Source: Tetraselmis striata
Taxonomy: Eukaryota; Chlorophyta; Chlorodendrophyceae; Chlorodendrales; Chlorodendraceae
Direction: 5' to 3'
Assembly (NCBI GenBank): GCA_006384855.1
Contig: VCJN01003035.1
Span: 56,191 to 120,190, forward strand
DNA length: 64,000 bases
The notes beneath the pieces were generated by a model. It made no database searches and was not told the DNA's origin. It worked only from the letters and a program-made list of their open reading frames with translations. Made by a program: the position numbers and the translations under genes. Shown piece after piece: positions 44,413 to 61,946 of the stretch (positions are counted from its first letter, which is position 1; every line of letters starts with the position of its first letter).

Positions 44413-45310
44413 TTGTTAGGGTAATAGGCGGCTAGCTAGGGCTAAAGACCACACAGAACGACCCGCGCGCCGACTTTGCATCTCGGGCGGTGGCTCAGCT
44501 CCGCCGCCTGCACGATCGCGGCGACCGCCATCGCGAGCGTGGCGAACACCATGACGAGCGCCCGCGCTGCGCAGCCACGCCGGCTCGAACGGAGACAACA
44601 TGGATGAGGACCTACCGGGCCTTGACGACAACCTCCTGCCGTCGCCCTTCCCGGAGGCGGGACCAGTACCGGTCCTACCGACGACTGCGCTGACTACGAT
44701 GGCGACACCGGACGTCACCGCGAGAACCGACACCCTGCCGACTAGACCCTTCCTGCTCCGCCAGCATTCGTGGCAGTGTTATCATCACTGCGTCGTCACC
44801 GTACTCAATACTCAAGAGCAATAGTTTGGCCCGTCGATTCAAAATATCATCTGCACTTTGTTCAAGCATTGTGCGCATGGCCAGGTACCGGACATCACGT
44901 ACAATTGCACGGGTGAAGGTATAGGCAGCAGCAGAAAGGCAAGGGCTGTCAGCACTTGTTTACACATATGCACAAGAAATTGCATCGGGGCACCTGAGGG
45001 TCTCGCCACCAATTTGATTGCATTCCACATATCCAGTGACTGATGGCTTGTCTGCCCTTCGCCTCCTCCCACAGGATTTATAGGCACAGCTATGCATGCG
45101 TTTGACGGCACAATCGAGAATAATCGCTGGCCTGACTGTTGCGCGTGGCCCAACCAGCGCATATATCGTTATCAAGGTATTGACTGTACGATGGCGTACA
45201 CGATGGCTGCTTGAGTAAGCTTCTGATGGGCACGATTCAGCAATGCGTGCGTGCCTCATCGTTCGTGGGGAGAGGCGAATGTTTTGGTTGGATAAGAGGG
45301 GTTTAAGCAG

Positions 45311-46484
45311 TTAGGCTAGCGCCGGGAGCAGGGCACCCGCAATGCCCGCAACCGCCAGCAGGAGCATCCCGGGCACCTGGGACCCGCCGCTTGCATCACT
45401 TGCATTGCTCTCGCCCATGTCTTCCTCCTCGTTGTTGGGGCTCACTCCAGTTATGCTGCCGGAGCTACCTACTGTTGTGCTGCCAGAGCTCGCTCCTGTT
45501 CTGGCGCCACCACTGCCTCCAGTTGTGGTGCCACCGATGCTGCACACATCCACCAGCACGCGCCCGTCGCTGAGCAGGCTGCAAGTCTCCTCATCAGCGC
45601 TCAGCGGCACCGTGTTTTGGTGGAACTCGTCATAGGCATCGGTCCCCCAAACAGCCTTCAGAATGCTCTCTCGGCGGCAGCCCGTCTTGTAGCGAGTGTA
45701 GCTTGTAGGGTTGGTGAGGAAATAGTTCTGTGCGTGCGGACGCAGACATTGGGGATGGGGGTGGGGGGTGAATCCGGAGACTCGCTGGCGGCACGAGGAA
45801 TCATGTGATGTCTACAGTCCAGGCGACAAGCAAGTGCTGACCCTGCCCCCACGGGCTGACACCACCGCTCAAGCAATTTCGTGGGCTTACCTGATGGTTT
45901 GATTCGGCAACATAGAAGGTACCAAGCGGGAGCACCTCGGTCAAGATGGTCCAGCTGTTAGCGGCCTCGAAGGCTGCCTTCGAGTCGAGCGCCGCCTGCT
46001 GCTGTTCGGGTCCGTCATAAAAGATGGCGCTCCGGTAAGAGGCGCCCCTGTCGCAGAACTGCCCGTCGTTTTGCAAGGGGTTGACATTATGCCAGAAAAA
46101 GCCCAGCAGCGTCTCGTAGTCGAGTACGGCGTCGTCGTAGACCACGCGTACGACCTCCAGGTGTCCCGTGTCCTCGCGGACGACCTGGTAGTAGGTAGGA
46201 CAGACAACGTCGCCGCCTGCGTAGCCGCTCTCGGCGCACAGCACGCCCGGAAGCTTCTGTAGCGCCTGTGGCGGAAGAGCGTTTTGCAGTGTCAGTCCGG
46301 TGCAGGTTCGGTGGATTTGTAAAATCAGGGCAACTGATAATGTATTTGTGGGTGGGCGGTAAATTCGGCACGGCACCTCTTCGCCACACCAGAAGCAACC
46401 CATTGCGAAGACAGCCGAGGTGGGGGCGGCCCTGGCAGCGGGAGCCGTCAGACCGAGGAGAATGAAAATCAGGATTGGCTGCAT
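45311..46484 (-). CDS. msrA: secreted peptide methionine sulfoxide reductase A with GPI-like tail, 299 aa
   Basis: MsrA reduces the S-epimer of methionine sulfoxide, free or in proteins, back to methionine. Exons: 46484-46377, 46265-45891, 45727-45311, phase 0 at both junctions. Residues 1-20 form a signal peptide (MQPILIFILLGLTAPAARAA). The catalytic motif GCFWCGEE starts at residue 29, with Cys30 as the expected nucleophile. Further MsrA blocks are LPGVLCAESGYAGGD, HLEVVRVVYDDAVLDYETLL, FFWHNVNP and QFCDRGASYRSAIF. The fold is complete by about residue 180. The last ~70 residues are Gly/Ser/Thr-rich, then end in a hydrophobic segment (GMLLLAVAGIAGALLPALA) with nothing after it, the pattern of a GPI-anchor signal. 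Most algal MsrAs are cytosolic or plastidic, so a secretory, membrane-tethered form is unusual. Confidence 0.92.
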
Positions 46485-48016
46485 GATGGCACCTTGCTGC
46501 CCCCCCTGCTAGTCGGGAAATAGGTAGAGGATGCGTTCTGGGCGGACTGTTGCTCTTTCCTCGCTAACTGGTGGTGCCGTCCAAGGATTACGAGAGCCCT
46601 CCAGCCCCAGCGCGCCCCCAGCCCCTCATGTACCTGTAGACTGTAGTCATATCCAGGTGGTAATGCAGTACTAGCCTTGAACTAGCGACTACGTGTAGTA
46701 GCGCCAGAACGCCAGCAGGCCGTTCTGGCGATATATTACTAGTGGCGATATAGTACTAGCGATATATTGTCATCGTCATCAGCGCCATATAATACGCTCG
46801 CTGCTCGTATCCATCGTTAATGGACACCCCTAACTACAGGACTTTAGCAGGACTGAAATAATGACATAACACAGGCGGCGCTCGTATCGTCCCGCCGCCA
46901 TATTTAATTTAATACCTTATTTAGTCGGTAGTCGCAGATGATGGAGCTCTACCCAGAGCGCGTATGGGTTTAGCGACTACAGATAATTCGCATTCACAGT
47001 CGATTTTAAGGATTTTATATGTGTATAATATCATGTATACTACATACAGGGCGGCACCAGCGGTAGCGACATAATATGGCGCCTACCCTCGTATTACGTT
47101 ATGCGCTGCTGAAAACCTATCTCCTATGGAGATACCGACGACGCTACTCGCGCCGCCTGTCCGTCTTCCTGGCTGGCCTGCCTGGGCTGGGGCGGTGTAT
47201 GGTCGCTACAACTTAATTTTGTTCTTTTCTACATGATGCTGCGCGCAACATACATTACACCAGTCCACACAGTCTTTGCACATAGAAATCCGCGCGTATC
47301 CTTGCCTTGGTGCCCAAGCCACGAGGCCAAGGGGCCATGTAATCCAGTGTATGCAAGCCTCCTATGCCAAGGAGGCAGCCGTTTCTCCCGGTTATCGCAC
47401 TTTTAGAAATGTTCTTTGGCAATGGCATTGCTTGGCACATGTATGGCTAAAACCACAGAAAAAACGGGCGATGAATAGAGGGCAGCTTGTTGACGGTGTA
47501 GCTACCATCCGTCGCGTATGCCCGCGCGCTGCCCGTGGTGGGTGGATGTAAATGCATGCGATGTAAGACGGCCAAGCTTGAGCCCAATCCATGCACGCTG
47601 CCGATGCAATGCATGGCATTTCCATGAGAGTGTGCCAGTAATGCCGTCGTCGTGATGGGGCCAATCATCCCACAATTTTCCAAGCTATAAAATAAGCGCC
47701 GTTTGGCCGCGCCTCGCTGGGTGAAAGTAGCACACATAAAGTGCCTTCGATAGGCGCATGCTTATACCGCCTGCACCGTAGGCCAAGCGCGAGCTGGTCC
47801 CCTCGACAACAATGTCGCCACCGCTGCACAGGTCTGCGCGCATGTTGTAACACATGTCACCCATCATCCAAGGGGAAAAGCCAAAATGATGACGGGGTCC
47901 GCGCTACGTGGAGATCTATCCAAAGCGGTCCTCGCGCCTGGGAGCTTGCGTGGAAGGCACATTACATGCCCCCATCACGCGCCCCCACCCACAGTGAGTG
48001 GGCTGGCTGGGATACC

Positions 48017-51056: not shown

Positions 51057-51649
51057 ATTGTACCGCTGGCACCGATACCCGCGGGTAACGCCGGCGCGAA
51101 GCTCCCGGGAGTATAATGCGCTTGCAACGGAGGTGGGGATGCTGGCAGCCAGATTCCTAGTCGAGGGCGAGCAAATGGCGGCGGCGGCGGTATCACCGAC
51201 CGTTGCCGCGTTGCGGGGCGTCGTGGAGTCTAGTTTCCCAAGAGAAAAACGGTTTTTACCGTTCAGACTGTTGCTCAGCTGCCACGCAGCCCCAGCGTGC
51301 ACTGCTGTCGAAACGGTCCGCCACGACCGCACAGTGGAATTGCTCCCAGAACAAAACAACTAGCGACTAACGCCTCTCGAGATATGTTTCGATTCGAAAG
51401 GCAGCACTAGGCGGCAATGGGTAATGAGAGTTCTCACAGCAACAGCTACCGTTGGCGCTGTGCCGCTGTAGACCGACTGTGGCAAATGATGCTGGCCCTT
51501 AGCGAGTAGTTAGCGATAAATGGTCCATGATCCCTGTTTTACTCGCTACCCTCACCTGCATAGATTGAAAAAGAATGCCGTCGAGCATTCCGGGCGGCGG
51601 GCTCCGCGCCCGTGCGCGCGGTCGTTCCGAACACTCCCCGTACGGGTAT

Positions 51650-52909
51650 TGATCTAAACTAGTTTATGGGGTTTCCATCCTTGAACTAACCGCTTTTTAG
51701 CTATAGCTAAAAACTTTTATGTATACAAGTGCTGCTCAGTGGTACGGGAACTAGTAACTGTTGTTGCGCCCTTGTTGGGTGCAGCACGAGTAGACAGAAA
51801 AGCAGCCAGAACAGCTGAGCCTGCCATCTTCCAGTTTTCGCTGCGTTCCACGCAGCGATGTAAAAACTGTCTCGTAACCCGTTGCGAGCAAGGTCACCCC
51901 AGGTTGTTCAAGACCACACCCGGCTCGCCATCCGAGTGTGATATTCTCGTCCGTACGTCCGTGCGTTACCATGTCAGATGGAGAAGAACCCGTCGCTGAG
52001 CCGACGTTGCAGTCGCTGAACGCAGATATGAGGGCCCAGTCTTCATTACTGCGAGAGCTGGCTACAGCTGTGGCACAATTGACGGCTCGTGATCGCGTTG
52101 TTGATGGAGAAGGGGCACATGGCTCCGGCTCAGGGCAGCGCTTCGCGGGACAGCCGACAGGCAGCGGGGGAGCCGCAGAGCGCCCCGACTTGCTAGAGCT
52201 AGCCCAGAGCGGCCGTGTCGGAGCAAAATCCGTGAGTGCCGAGGATGATTACCTCGCGGTGCCAGAGCTACTGCAGAGAGCAGAGTCTGGTTACGAGGCC
52301 GTTCGACCGGTCAGCCGAGTGCCTGGACTTTTCCCTTTGAGCACCGACCTAACGAACGAGTACCTCAAGCAGGATGACCGGCGTCTGCCGGCCCAGGAGG
52401 AGTACTTGTGGATGTCGTGTTTCGGGGCCCACATGGCCGCCCTTTTCGTGGCGCTCGACGAGCTGCTACCTTACGTCCCCGCCACTAACCAGGACTTCAC
52501 CCCCTACCTCGCGAGAGCTCGGAATCACGCCGAGGCCATCGACAAGGCGTTTCGTTTTCGTCTAGCCTTCCTGCGGAAACTGAATGAGATCAAGCGGGTA
52601 CACGGTGACCAAGGTGTTCTGGACGTGCTGCGAGCTCAGCATTTTCAGCCTGCTTCGGAGCATTTGGGTTCTGCGATTTTTGGGGACCTCATGAGGGACT
52701 ACGAGCGTCGTGTCTTCGAGGCGACCGTTGCCAGCAGCGCCAAGGCGACCGCTACTTCTCGAGTAGCGGCTGCAGCTGCAGGTCGCGGGCGTGGGCGAGG
52801 ACGTGGCGGCGGACGTGGACGTGGCCGCGAAGGTGAGCACGAGTGACGGTGTGGGGCGCCGCTCGTCGGAGCTGCAGGAGCCTTGCGAGGCCACCTTTCG
52901 GTGACCGCC
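51650..52909 (+). repeat. left inverted arm, 1260 bp
   Basis: It pairs with 54545-55782. In the shared region positions mirror at a constant coordinate sum of 107454, so there are no indels across the Gag ORF. Confidence 0.93.
51971..52846 (+). CDS. Gag-like protein, left arm, 291 aa
   Basis: The ATG at 51971 (context TACCATGTCAG) opens a protein beginning MSDGEEPVAEPTLQSLNADM. A heptad-like helix (LLRELATAVAQLTA) comes next, then a Gly/Ser linker and a helical core: CFGAHMAALFVALDELLPY, NHAEAIDKAFRFRLAFLRKL and SAIFGDLMRDYERRVFEA. The C-terminus is an RG-rich nucleic-acid-binding type tail (GRGRGRGGGRGRGRE), ending EHE before UGA. N-terminal coiled coil, helical core and basic RG tail match Gag architecture in DIRS-type elements, and a decayed relative sits at 56.8-57.8 kb. 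Downstream, the same frame stays open into the recombinase after the single stop. A strong donor (AAG|GTGAGC) lies at 52833, 12 nt before the stop. No zinc knuckle is present. Confidence 0.75.
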   Translation: MSDGEEPVAEPTLQSLNADMRAQSSLLRELATAVAQLTARDRVVDGEGAHGSGSGQRFAGQPTGSGGAAERPDLLELAQSGRVGAKSVSAEDDYLAVPELLQRAESGYEAVRPVSRVPGLFPLSTDLTNEYLKQDDRRLPAQEEYLWMSCFGAHMAALFVALDELLPYVPATNQDFTPYLARARNHAEAIDKAFRFRLAFLRKLNEIKRVHGDQGVLDVLRAQHFQPASEHLGSAIFGDLMRDYERRVFEATVASSAKATATSRVAAAAAGRGRGRGRGGGRGRGREGEHE

Positions 52910-54490
52910 GCAAGACGCACCCTTGCAGCTCAACGGCGGAATGAGCGCCCTGTGTCAGGACCTGACCCCCCCACCTTACAGACTTCATTTAGACCTTCCT
53001 CGGTGCGGCGCTTCTTACAGCTACAGCCGAGCGCGGCTCAACCATCCGCACGCCTGCACATGGCGGCTCAACCATCCGCCTTTCTTACAACCCCATCTCT
53101 GCGTTCGTCGGTTGTTACACTACGTGTTACAACCGGTTCGCAACGACCAAGTTTCGCGCGTGTACGTTACGCACGTGACAGGCGCTTTGAGCGCGAAGGG
53201 CGCGCGGGGCGGCCCTCTTACCTGAACCTAGCCCCGCAAACCCGTACTGGAGCTACTGCAAACCCGTCCAGCAACTACCGGCCAACCGCCGGGAACCTAA
53301 CCGTTGCTGCCGAGTACTTTGCGAACAGTAGCCGTGTCGGTGGAACTCTGTCAGTAATTGACGAGCCCGCAGCTATCGCTCCATGGGCTGCGTCACTGCG
53401 ATCTCGACTGCAGGACGCGTTCGGCTCAGACGAGCTAGGCCAGCGGACGCTCGACCTGCTCTCCAGCTCCCTCAGCGCTCAGACCCTCAAGAGCTACGCC
53501 GGCAGGTTGTCTCAGTTCGCTGAGTTCTGCCACGACTCCGAGAACATCAGCCCGCTGGAAGCGACTACTGCTACTGTTGTTCGGTACGTTGCCTGGATCG
53601 GAGAGCGAGGGCACATCGCAGCTAAATCATTGCAGCCCTACCTGTATGCCATCAACACCTTCTTCGAGCTGCACAACCTCGTCCCGATCGCCAAGGACAG
53701 CCTACACCTCACTTCAGCGAGACGTGGGTTAATGTTGCGTCAGCGCCGACTGGACGCTGCCCCTTTGCGTGTCCCTCTGCCTGCGGATGTAGCTTATCGC
53801 TTCGTCTCAAAGGCCGAGCTAATTGTGTCTGCTCCTTACTCAGAGTCCCACCTCGACTACCGAGCCCTCTTGGCCTCGGTTGTCAACTTCCTGTTCTTTG
53901 CCAGGGGCCTTACTGGCGTCTCCTGTCGAGTGCAAGATGTGCATGTCGACACCTACAACATCACCTTGCAGATCTGCCGCGAGAAGGGTCGCGCTGGCCG
54001 GCGGGGGCCCGGCGACCTGCGCGTACTTCTCCTTCCAGTGTCCGAGCACCCTCGAGTGGCACGTCTCTTGCACCACTTCATCGACAACGTCCAGTCTGTC
54101 CCCCTGGTTACTGTTGGCTTGGCTGCCTCCAACTTCTGGGCTGTCAATGTGGCTGAGCAGTCAAAACCTTGGACTGCGGCTACGATGTCAGACTGGTTGT
54201 CTACAGCAGTCAACCTAGTCAACGCTGCCCCCCCTGCTGGCACTTCCTGGACTTCACACAGTCTACGCAAGGGCGCAGCCTCTGCAGCAAACGCCATCGG
54301 AGCGCCACTGTCCCACATCCGCTACCAAGGCGGTTGGGCCACTAACTCTGATGTCGTTCTGGACTACATCGACCCCAACGTTCTTCCTTCACCTGGCGCG
54401 TGGTTCTTCTTTGGACACATCGCCCCCCTCCGCCACTTCCAAGTCCAACAGGACTCCGCAGCGGTGGCCTTCCCAGTGCCTCCTTCATGA
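52847..54490 (+). CDS. tyrosine recombinase, in frame with Gag
   Basis: This integrase-type enzyme cuts and rejoins DNA through a tyrosine. The frame is open from the base after the Gag stop. The first in-frame ATG is at 53060 (478 codons with stop), so the N-terminal ~70 codons are only made if expressed as a Gag fusion. An N-terminal SAM-like core-binding part is seen (SSSLSAQTLKSYAGRLSQFA and LEATTATVVRYVAWIG). The catalytic domain carries the box A Arg (FLFFARGLTGVSCR), a Lys/Arg-rich beta region (CREKGRAGR), box B H-x-x-R in TSHSLRKGAASAANA, a following Trp (YQGGWATNSD) and the nucleophile Tyr in VVLDYIDPN. All expected catalytic positions are filled, so the enzyme looks competent. The stop codon is TGA at 54488-54490. 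Confidence 0.88.
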   Translation, partial: RCGAPLVGAAGALRGHLSVTAARRTLAAQRRNERPVSGPDPPTLQTSFRPSSVRRFLQLQPSAAQPSARLHMAAQPSAFLTTPSLRSSVVTLRVTTGSQRPSFARVRYARDRRFEREGRAGRPSYLNLAPQTRTGATANPSSNYRPTAGNLTVAAEYFANSSRVGGTLSVIDEPAAIAPWAASLRSRLQDAFGSDELGQRTLDLLSSSLSAQTLKSYAGRLSQFAEFCHDSENISPLEATTATVVRYVAWIGERGHIAAKSLQPYLYAINTFFELHNLVPIAKDSLHLTSARRGLMLRQRRLDAAPLRVPLPADVAYRFVSKAELIVSAPYSESHLDYRALLASVVNFLFFARGLTGVSCRVQDVHVDTYNITLQICREKGRAGRRGPGDLRVLLLPVSEHPRVARLLHHFIDNVQSVPLVTVGLAASNFWAVNVAEQSKPWTAATMSDWLSTAVNLVNAAPPAGTSWTSHSLRKGAASAANAIGAPLSHIRYQGGWATNSDVVLDYIDPNVLPSPGAWFFFGHIAPLRHFQVQQDSAAVAFPVPPS

Positions 54491-54544
54491 CTTGGCGCTA
54501 CCCCTTCTCCGTCAATCCACCGCTCTCTCCGTTCGCTCAAGACT

Positions 54545-55782
54545 GGCGGTCACCGAAAGGTGGCCTCGCAAGGCTCCTGCAGCTCCGACGAGCGGCGCCC
54601 CACACCGTCACTCGTGCTCACCTTCGCGGCCACGTCCACGTCCGCCGCCACGTCCTCGCCCACGCCCGCGACCTGCAGCTGCAGCCGCTACTCGAGAAGT
54701 AGCGGTCGCCTTGGCGCTGCTGGCAACGGTCGCCTCGAAGACACGACGCTCGTAGTCCCTCATGAGGTCCCCAAAAATCGCAGAACCCAAATGCTCCGAA
54801 GCAGGCTGAAAATGCTGAGCTCGCAGCACGTCCAGAACACCTTGGTCACCGTGTACCCGCTTGATCTCATTCAGTTTCCGCAGGAAGGCTAGACGAAAAC
54901 GAAACGCCTTGTCGATGGCCTCGGCGTGATTCCGAGCTCTCGCGAGGTAGGGGGTGAAGTCCTGGTTAGTGGCGGGGACGTAAGGTAGCAGCTCGTCGAG
55001 CGCCACGAAAAGGGCGGCCATGTGGGCCCCGAAACACGACATCCACAAGTACTCCTCCTGGGCCGGCAGACGCCGGTCATCCTGCTTGAGGTACTCGTTC
55101 GTTAGGTCGGTGCTCAAAGGGAAAAGTCCAGGCACTCGGCTGACCGGTCGAACGGCCTCGTAACCAGACTCTGCTCTCTGCAGTAGCTCTGGCACCGCGA
55201 GGTAATCATCCTCGGCACTCACGGATTTTGCTCCGACACGGCCGCTCTGGGCTAGCTCTAGCAAGTCGGGGCGCTCTGCGGCTCCCCCGCTGCCTGTCGG
55301 CTGTCCCGCGAAGCGCTGCCCTGAGCCGGAGCCATGTGCCCCTTCTCCATCAACAACGCGATCACGAGCCGTCAATTGTGCCACAGCTGTAGCCAGCTCT
55401 CGCAGTAATGAAGACTGGGCCCTCATATCTGCGTTCAGCGACTGCAACGTCGGCTCAGCGACGGGTTCTTCTCCATCTGACATGGTAACGCACGGACGTA
55501 CGGACGAGAATATCACACTCGGATGGCGAGCCGGGTGTGGTCTTGAACAACCTGGGGTGACCTTGCTCGCAACGGGTTACGAGACAGTTTTTACATCACT
55601 GCGTGGAACGCAGCGAAAACTGGAAGATGGCAGGCTCAGCTGTTCTGGCTGCTTTTATGTCTACTCGTGCTGCACCCAACAAGGGCGCAACAACAGTTAC
55701 TAGTTCCCGTACCACTGAGCAGCACTTGTAGCTAAAAAGCGGTTAGGTCAAGGATGGAAACCCCATAAACTAGTTTAGATCA
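54545..55782 (-). repeat. right inverted arm, 1238 bp
   Basis: It is the reverse complement of 51650-52909 without the 22-nt insertion. The Gag proteins of the two arms are identical in sequence. Confidence 0.93.
54608..55483 (-). CDS. Gag-like protein, right arm (inverted copy), 291 aa
   Basis: It is identical to the left-arm Gag over its full length and starts from the mirrored ATG. It runs convergently toward the recombinase gene. After its UGA the frame stays open across the arm boundary but stops nine codons into the unique centre, so this copy cannot give a Gag-recombinase fusion. It is intact with no silent decay visible, which implies a recent origin, gene conversion between arms, or an assembly duplication. 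Confidence 0.75.
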   Translation of the reverse strand: MSDGEEPVAEPTLQSLNADMRAQSSLLRELATAVAQLTARDRVVDGEGAHGSGSGQRFAGQPTGSGGAAERPDLLELAQSGRVGAKSVSAEDDYLAVPELLQRAESGYEAVRPVSRVPGLFPLSTDLTNEYLKQDDRRLPAQEEYLWMSCFGAHMAALFVALDELLPYVPATNQDFTPYLARARNHAEAIDKAFRFRLAFLRKLNEIKRVHGDQGVLDVLRAQHFQPASEHLGSAIFGDLMRDYERRVFEATVASSAKATATSRVAAAAAGRGRGRGRGGGRGRGREGEHE

Positions 55783-56790
55783 AACACAGTACTCGCGGTA
55801 CAACGTGTACATACCTGTAGTCGCGGTACGACCGGTACCTATTGTACCGACTACCGAGTACCTGTAGCGAGCTTATATGTAATTATATTGTACCGCGTCA
55901 TCGCGAGTAGTACGAGGCAAGGTAATGAATAATAATATACCTGTAGTCGCTATGGTTACCTGAGCTAGCTGCAGAAGGCGATCAGGAAACCAAAAGGCAA
56001 GGTAATAAATAAAGGTAGCGAGTACCCGTCGTCCCGTCGTCGCGGCGGCGGTCGCGGCGCTCGCACTGTGCGCATGCGGTATAATATGATATCTATTACT
56101 TAAAATTTTATTGGTGGTCTTTAAGGTGTTGGCGCGGACACCCATTCTAACTACAGACATAGTTCGAGATATTACCGTCAATATTTCCTCACCATTAGCA
56201 GGTGTGTATGTATGTATGCACATGCTGACATCAATCGCGGATTTTGTATGGGAAATTCCTGGCGGGTACAAAATATGAAACGAACTACAGGTAGCAACTA
56301 TCCAGAGCACGGATTTTGGCGGTTTGAATATGGCCTTGCTGCAGTCTGAGGCCCCCGCGGCGTTTATTCTGCGCAATCGGTTGTCCTGCCAAAGCTTGTA
56401 CGGGAGTACGGGCCCGCCCTCGGCCCCTTGTACGAGGCGGTTGGCGCCGAGGTGTCGTCCGTGCTTTGCCATATGCATAATGGGCGCGCGAGACGCGCCG
56501 CGTATACGAGACTGTACGGGCCCTTACCACGTTACCGCAAGCAGATGTGCAGCGCGCACGCGCCGCGTACGGGCACGCCCACGAGATCTTCGAGTTATTT
56601 ACGGTCGGTGAGAGACTGAGAGAGACGCCTTGTAGAGAGACGCCCCGGTAGAAAGGCGTGCGTGGGCGCCGCGCCAAAGAAAGGCAGCGGCACTCCCTCG
56701 CGAACCCACTGGAGCACGCGCCCGCTTGCTCCGATTCGCCGCCACTCCCGCCAGTTCTGCCGCACGCGATGGCGCAGAAACGTGGAAGGG
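55783..56790. other. repeat-rich intergenic stretch
   Basis: It contains CCTGTAGTCGC motifs (near 55814 and 55939), a short dispersed repeat (55962-56008), a GTATGTATGTATGCA tract near 56205 and GC-rich DNA from 56400. Overlapping ORFs on both strands at 56285-56677 show no domain. Confidence 0.4.
55962..56008 (+). repeat. dispersed short repeat B, copy 2
   Basis: It matches 6823-6870: GAGCTAGCTGCAGAAGGCG, ATCAGGAAAC and AAAAGGCAA. Confidence 0.65.
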
Positions 56791-61306: not shown

Positions 61307-61946
61307 CGCGCGGCGCCAAGGCGCGGCGGCCGGGGCAGCGCGGCGCCAAGGCGCGGCGGCCGGGGCAGCGCGGCGCCAAGGCGCGGCGGCCGGGGCAGCG
61401 CGGCGCCAAGGCGCGGCGGCCGGGGCAGCGCGGCGCCAAGGCGCGGCGGCCGGGGCAGCGCGGCGCCAAGACAGCGGCGGCCGGGGCAGCGCGGCGCCAA
61501 GACAGCGGCGGCCGGGGCAGCGCGGCGCCAAGACAGCGGCGGCCGGGGCAGCGCGGCGCCAAGACAGCGGCGGCCGGGGCAGCGCGGCGCCAAGACAGCG
61601 GCGGCCGGGGCAGCGCGGCGCCAAGACAGCGGCGGCCGGGGCAGCGCGGCGCCAAGACAGCGGCGGCCGGGGCAGCGCGGCGCCAAGACAGCGGCGGCCG
61701 GGGCAGCGCGGCGCCAAGACAGCGGCGGCCGGGGCAGCGCGGCGCCAAGACAGCGGCGGCCGGGGCAGCGCGGCGCCAAGGCGCGGCGGCCGGGGCAGCG
61801 CGGCGCCAAGGCGCGGCGGCCGGGGCAGCGCGGCGCCAAGGCGCGGCGGCCGGGGCAGCGCGGCGCCAAGACAGCGGCGGCCGGGGCAGCGCGGCGCCAA
61901 GACAGCGGCGGCCGGGGCAGCGCGGCGCCAAGACAGCGGCGGCCGG
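61307..61946. repeat. 30/31-bp GC minisatellite, ~21 units in two variants
   Basis: Variant A (30 bp) has CGGCGCCAAGGCGCGGCGGC; variant B (31 bp) has CGGCGCCAAGACAGCGGCGG; both end in CCGGGGCAGCG. The order is about 5 A, 10 B, 3 A, 3 B (last truncated). Units are near-perfect copies within each class. Since 31 is not a multiple of three, each B unit shifts the reading frame. Open frames of up to ~480 codons on both strands here are by-products of the repeat. Confidence 0.95.

Follow-up and report, generated by a model that had tools for sequence, protein, structure and literature searches.

A 64,000-nt stretch of DNA from Tetraselmis striata (the window; contig VCJN01003035.1, here C2448) holds, at positions 51650 to 55782, a tyrosine recombinase (YR) gene enclosed by two inverted arms that encode the same Gag-like protein. 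We regard this unit, with a probability of roughly 0.55, as an aberrant copy of an abundant PAT-like element that encodes gag and YR and has no pol, formed by snap-back DNA synthesis and then inserted by end joining. As a single aberrant product, the fold-back is of modest interest; what merits follow-up is the cleanness of its junctions and, more interesting than the fold-back itself, the pol-less gag-YR family. The assembly of this chlorodendrophyte green alga that was searched comprises 224 Mb in 2,903 contigs.

The relatives of the unit that were sampled have the order A1-gag-(TGA)-YR-B1-A2-spacer-B2, in which A and B are split direct repeats, and carry no inverted arms. In the window copy, A1-gag-YR is followed by the inverse of gag-A1, and the tail B1-A2-B2 is gone (Table 1). 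The arms were detected as an inverted pair of 1,186 nt (51724-52909 and 54545-55730; 100% after rounding) with a spacer of 1,635 nt, together with an outer inverted pair of 64 nt (51640-51703 and 55729-55792; 92%). When compared out to the element ends, the arms showed 3 mismatches over 1,238 aligned positions, and the left arm had 22 bp that the right arm lacks. Besides the arms, an inverted-pair scan of this copy gave just two 38-nt internal pairs, both within the arms. Within the window, the 21-bp element terminus was confined to either end of this copy, in opposite orientations (shuffled sequences are expected to contain none). A 1,635-bp YR centre between inverted arms with the same inward-facing 291-aa protein had been described in the initial annotation, and its coordinates and lengths proved correct to within a few bases.

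Table 1. Coordinates of the fold-back copy and its flanks in the window
Feature	Position	Strand	Remark
Left host flank	51350..51649		Continuous with right flank in empty haplotype C2399 (L033)
Left arm, A1 terminal repeat and gag	51650..52909	+	Stops 63 bp past gag stop
A1 repeat	51650..51855	+	184 bp in relatives, here with 22-bp insert
22-bp insert	51702..51723	+	Not in right arm nor in 19 of 19 aligned relatives
Gag-like frame, 291 aa	51971..52846	+	Arginine-glycine (RG)-rich C-terminus; stop TGA, then CGG; 'Gag' by position
YR frame, 547 codons	52847..54490	+	Open from gag stop
Centre (loop) carrying YR gene	52910..54544	+	
Fold-back joint GGC	54545..54547	+	Common to normal YR-B1 sequence and reverse complement of 52907-52909
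Right arm, reverse complement of A1-gag	54545..55782	-	In place of B1-A2-B2 of relatives
Second gag-like frame	54608..55483	-	Protein same as that of left arm
Second A1 terminus	55599..55782	-	Without 22-bp insert; ends exactly at A1 end
Right host flank	55783..56082		Continuous with left flank in C2399 for ~150 bp, then indels

A search with the centre gave at least 39 further relatives (best 40 of 2,495 candidates scored), and 20 loci plus 1 were fetched, 21 in all. The A pair was complete in 17 of these (no full A pair lay in the fetched stretch of L012, L015, L020, and L025), and its orientation was direct in every one of the 17. The A repeat measures 184 bp, taken as the stretch over which A1 and A2 agree, and B about 26 bp; B1 and B2 differed by 0 to 1 mismatch across 21 bp in 16 of the 17 relatives with an A pair, and the sequence at the B1-A2 joint is that predicted from B2 joined to A1. 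From A1 to B2, 13 of the 14 copies tried measured 3,173 to 3,242 bp (L016 was missed in this measurement because of a strict motif, yet was included in the A and B repeat comparisons). This length is filled by gag and YR, which leave no space for pol, and neither reverse transcriptase (RT) nor RNase H was found in the relatives. With up to 2 mismatches, the terminal 26-mer occurs 2,904 times (1,416 + 1,488) in the genome. Among 100 of these termini that were listed, 28 had a same-strand neighbour at a spacing of 2,876 to 2,949 bp; none showed an A-A spacing of 3 to 8.8 kb, none had an opposite-strand neighbour within 15 kb, and nothing pointed to a pol-bearing sibling sharing these ends. The two haplotypes of the window region are separate contigs, C2448 and C2399. 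Haplotypes were thus at least partly assembled apart, so that copy counts are inflated (partly doubled); the same circumstance lets insertion polymorphism be read from the assembly.

The fold-back layout was seen in the window copy alone. The joint occurs once in the assembly at up to 3 mismatches, and with a 601-bp query across the junction only the window's own sequence spanned it (best 40 of 3,765 candidates). A family built of inverted gag arms, or an undescribed arm-centre-arm architecture as the initial annotation had offered, is therefore rejected; its proposed search for further copies of this layout returned none besides that in the window. Its alternative, that a DIRS element lost pol through fold-back, also fails, because relatives without any fold-back, at about 3.2 kb, likewise have no room for pol. 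What stood of the earlier description is the inward gag arms around YR, the kinship with the DIRS order, and the lack of pol. Also hardly credible is the arm-centre-arm unit as a mobile form with a way of life of its own. As would suit such a form, the unit ends at an exact A1 terminus on either side, its YR frame and both of its gag frames are open, and the whole sits at a single site; against this, it is a single copy, opposite-strand pairs are absent among the 100 listed termini, and it has no B1-A2-B2, which all 17 relatives with an A pair possess. The window copy probably cannot move by itself. Double-stranded RNA over gag, which had been predicted for it, is possible.

Its insertion site was read from the second haplotype. 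C2399 matched window positions 44612 to 46500 at 99% (no other match exceeded 80% over more than 100 bp of the query), and matched the flanks at 99.6% over 751 bp on the left and at 91%, with indels, on the right; the collinearity of the two contigs extends for at least 7 kb. The empty allele reads GGGTAT-TTGGACA-AACACAG and the filled allele GGGTAT/TGATC ... GATCA/AACACAG (slashes mark element ends). The whole unit therefore lies at one target from which 4 to 7 bp were lost, the range reflecting the assignment of shared bases, and the empty site that the initial annotation had advised looking for was indeed present, as one insertion site. With a single empty site in C2399, two insertions at separate sites are unlikely. 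The right arm runs exactly to the A1 terminus and is bordered by the genuine right flank rather than a copy of the left one, which speaks against both a folded read and a fold-back of integrated DNA. Fold-back of DNA that was already chromosomal was accordingly rejected, as the left flank is not duplicated.

An assembly error, in the form of a read fold or a collapsed palindrome, is very unlikely on the same grounds. Long inverted repeats are a known assembly risk, and the layout was found just once. A read fold would, however, have placed a copy of the left flank beyond the right arm, where the sequence is in fact the one on the opposite side of the empty site; moreover, 3 bases and 22 bp separate the two arms, and their joint falls at a microhomology within the element.

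We compared the arms with 19 relatives (without L025 and L030). The arms were mutual nearest neighbours among the copies compared, with 3 differences between them and 4 to 5 to the next copy, and were closer to each other than any of the 171 pairs among the 19 other copies (0.40 to 4.8%, median 2.0%). Their pairing received 85% ultrafast bootstrap support in a tree of 22 sequences. The next copy, in C1822, had 5 differences to the left arm. Both arms have A at 52600, which none of the 19 relatives has; genome-wide, exact 27-mers gave 3 occurrences with A and 51 with G. Two of the three are the arms themselves and the third is a normal element in C1391, so that 52600A as a variant private to both arms was rejected and weighs less. 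Taken together, these similarities favour, and do not prove, one molecule as the source of both arms.

Two other routes to the same layout were weighed against these data. In the first, a second copy entered at the B2 end of an earlier one, inversely oriented, to give a tail-to-tail double insertion, and the unstable centre of the resulting palindrome (one YR together with the B1-A2-B2 tails of both copies) was then deleted at the GGC microhomology. Insertion by this family is frequent, tandem copies lie 2,917 to 2,918 bp apart in C1388 and C2200, one site seems to have been used both ways round (L010 and L024), and GGC is common to both sides of the joint. This route nevertheless requires two insertions at one site as well as a deletion, and it sits poorly with the 4 to 7 bp of target lost, with arms closer than any other pair of copies, and with the lack of opposite-strand neighbours among the listed termini; we consider it unlikely. 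In the second, two extrachromosomal copies, both truncated and drawn from one pool, ended up in the same chromosome break and were end-joined to each other. The target loss, the 3-bp microhomology at the joint, and the exact A1 ends at both outer junctions would all follow, and the 3 arm differences may predate insertion. Two truncated molecules must then have met with their tails inward, and the rare 52600A in both arms is simpler with one molecule, so that this route is rated as quite unlikely.

In the snap-back reading, which we prefer, the starting molecule would be a linear plus-strand DNA that began with A1 at the 5' end and stopped or broke just past YR (54547). Its 3' GGC would have folded back and paired with GCC at 52907-52909, and synthesis primed there would have continued up to the strand's own 5' end, giving an exact A1 run-off with A1 at both ends. 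Snap-back synthesis would in this way explain why A1 termini stand at both ends, why the right one is exact, and why the centre is not duplicated. As the product had lost B1-A2-B2, it could not have made a normal circle and would have joined the chromosome by end joining, with loss of 4 to 7 bp of target; a loss of this size fits end joining better than a precise exchange of the kind seen at L013. At that locus, the comparison with the empty site (CGTAA/CTAAAA versus CGTAA/TGATC ... TTTGAAA/CTAAAA) revealed that the exchange was precise, took place at a short AA core, and left no target duplication. The 22-bp insert and neighbouring bases form a 20-bp perfect palindrome (51694-51713), perhaps the footprint of a second, small fold-back. 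In yeast, short inverted templated insertions are reported at breaks (PMC11724301).

Several observations weigh against this reading. The arms are not identical, and the copy in C1822 is only 4 mismatches from the right arm (the left arm is 3). The rare 52600A is shared by the C1391 copy, which is 14 mismatches from the right arm, and a 3-bp microhomology at the joint is weak evidence. No RNA, cDNA, or circle was observed. To find where normal copies have an empty counterpart, four joined pairs were queried and two candidates (L013 and L028) fetched; L013 alone was resolved, so a single site out of two fetched underlies the contrast with precise integration. Finally, the only RT-bearing DIRS element examined (L031) has no ends in common with the gag-YR family.

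Normal copies would, on our reading, replicate through RNA with RT supplied in trans, and their own YR would integrate them via the B2-A1 circle junction. Seven recurring A variants were found among the 17 elements, and each of the seven was present in both A1 and A2 of the element that has it; inside the 184 bp, no variant separates an A1 class from an A2 class. The pooled difference between A1 and A2 was 0.83% within elements versus 1.26% between elements, a modest contrast. Such private variants suggest reverse transcription, in which each cycle would rebuild A1 and A2 from a common template, although a circular intermediate bearing only one A would equally yield this sharing. If reverse transcription is involved, RT must come from elsewhere, as the family is pol-less. 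One RT-bearing element was characterized (L032 and L031; G000:C2745:10200-19700), with a zinc-knuckle gag, an RT-RNase H-Dam frame, and a third frame of 459 codons without a Pfam match that is a putative YR, judged by eye; its short direct repeats are ordered A1-B1-A2-B2. Of 122 Dam matches in the genome, 20 lie within 696-codon frames (one element examined). Between L031 and the gag-YR family there was no DNA similarity, and the YR frames were not detectably similar.

Coding capacity has been retained in part of the family. In 5 of 20 relatives (L010, L011, L014, L015, and L017; L025 was left out of the frame counts), a gag of 284 to 296 codons is followed by an in-frame YR of 552 to 553 codons; all three YR motif strings checked were kept in L010 and L015, and one was changed in L011, L014, and L017. 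In the other 15, gag and/or YR are interrupted or the frames are not consecutive. TGA-CGG stands at the gag end in 12 of the 20. Against a diverged copy, the second element of L017, itself broken, nonsynonymous over synonymous divergence (dN/dS) was 0.058/0.293 for gag and 0.102/0.364 for YR, that is, near 0.2 to 0.3 and well below 1, and the pooled polymorphism ratio (pN/pS) in 21 aligned copies was 0.28 for gag and 0.39 for YR. Part of this selection signal may be older than the loss of pol. The diverged copy has an A-gag-YR-A span of likewise about 3.2 kb, and the pol-less form therefore seems at least as old as the split from it. A wider proposal is that the family is a stable lineage without RT of its own, in which selection keeps Gag and YR and RT is borrowed in trans, and that snap-back of linear A1-ended DNA led from split direct to long inverted repeats in a single natural step, with the window copy as the bridge between the two; we advance this tentatively, at somewhat worse than even odds.

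Both arms of the window copy contain the same 302-codon frame (291 aa from ATG). It gave nothing above a cut-off in Pfam, and no zinc knuckle was reported, so the name Gag rests on position and the RG-rich end. The YR frame counts 535 aa from the first TTG (52883-54490). It scored above the Pfam cut-off for Phage_int_SAM_1 (27.8 versus 22.3 bits) and below it for Phage_integrase (19 versus 27.1), and its residues 454 to 497 weakly matched 14 Cre chains (E 0.012 to 0.064); putative catalytic residues were assigned by eye. Predicted structures were of low confidence, with a mean predicted local distance difference test score of 43.3 for Gag and 33.5 for YR. The centre occupies 1,653 to 1,657 alignment columns in 18 of the 19 relatives with a full centre, 1,641 in L024, and 1,635 in the window, from which the window YR appears about 18 bp short, in frame; six residues stand there in P0002, as read by eye. 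In the window, gag and YR share one frame with one TGA (TGA-CGG) between them. TGA-CGG is a read-through context, and because YR is open in the frame of gag past this stop, it may be produced by read-through. The 90 nt around the stop (52841-52930) folded at -44.4 kcal/mol (z -2.07 versus shuffles).

The best protein matches were gene models of T. striata (Tetstr1), for example with 97% identity across 81% of YR and 96% identity across 87% of gag; among the matches listed (120 of 339 for YR, 120 of 308 for gag), all were Tetstr1 except P0001 and P0222 (JGI). The Tetstr1 model P0175 joins pieces of the element to a chlorophyll-binding domain (PF00504), and P0081 joins them to a Ty3/gypsy-like RT; both fusions are probably annotation artefacts. 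P0081, a YR relative with an RT domain, was considered as a pol-bearing sibling and rejected: its RT is presumably Ty3/gypsy-like, judged by eye, and it was therefore read as a fused gene model.

Other observations concern the surroundings of these copies. Gag arms stand in tandem, three in G000:C1388:60477-67549 and two in G000:C2200:59465-63620; their spacing equals the A-A distance within one element, as would result from circles integrating into copies already in place. Of L010 and L024, one has a left flank that resembles, by eye, the other's right flank in reverse complement, as if the two copies had entered one position of a different repeat in opposite directions. The window also contains two tandem arrays, at 61308-61946 (31-bp unit, 20.9 copies, 99% matches) and at 868-2668 (187-bp unit, 9.8 copies, 74%), and its Rfam and tRNA scans gave no match.

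Among known systems, the PAT-like elements (DIRS order: Pat1, TOC3, kangaroo) are the closest in having YR, a gag-like first frame, the split direct repeats A1 ... B1-A2-B2 found in the relatives, and insertion without target duplication (one resolved site, L013). The gag-YR family differs from them in that it has no RT, RNase H, or methyltransferase, and the window copy in that it has two inverted A1 arms and no split direct repeats. As RT-RNase H is missing, we class the family as a pol-less PAT-like derivative and not as a full PAT-like member. Lack of methyltransferase is shared with Ngaro and VIPER, and split direct repeats with Ngaro, whereas RT and RNase H are present there and absent in the sampled relatives. 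DIRS1-like elements also combine YR with gag, and the inverted ends of the window copy resemble theirs; they are described as having short inverted terminal repeats, internal complementary regions, and pol (PMC3266345). In contrast, 1.2-kb gag-bearing arms are seen in the window copy alone and the repeats of its relatives are direct, which does not agree with a DIRS1-like assignment.

Cryptons carry a YR domain only (PMC4157794) and resemble the family in having YR without RT; the family, however, has a gag-like frame and split direct repeats, is under selection, and is thus not YR-only. TOC1 is a non-autonomous DIRS-order element. The family shares with it and with SIRE, which is built of VIPER ends (PMC6681497), the lack of RT and a movement presumably in trans, and differs from both in that its gag and YR remain coding, at a dN/dS well below 1. 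Among the papers listed, judged by titles and the beginnings of abstracts, there was no gag-YR family without RT and no fold-back DIRS copy, and the listed titles on Tetraselmis and DIRS include none on transposable elements. An abundant gag and YR family without RT, if true, would make the supply of RT in trans testable in a culturable green alga. DIRS-order replication is known mainly from models, and the exact A1 run-off is indirect evidence for the free linear A1-ended DNA that circle-joining models need. For nematode YR elements, forms between split direct and inverted repeats are noted as not observed and possibly inviable (PMC4157794). The window copy is such a form, and it shows a possible one-event route from direct to inverted end repeats.
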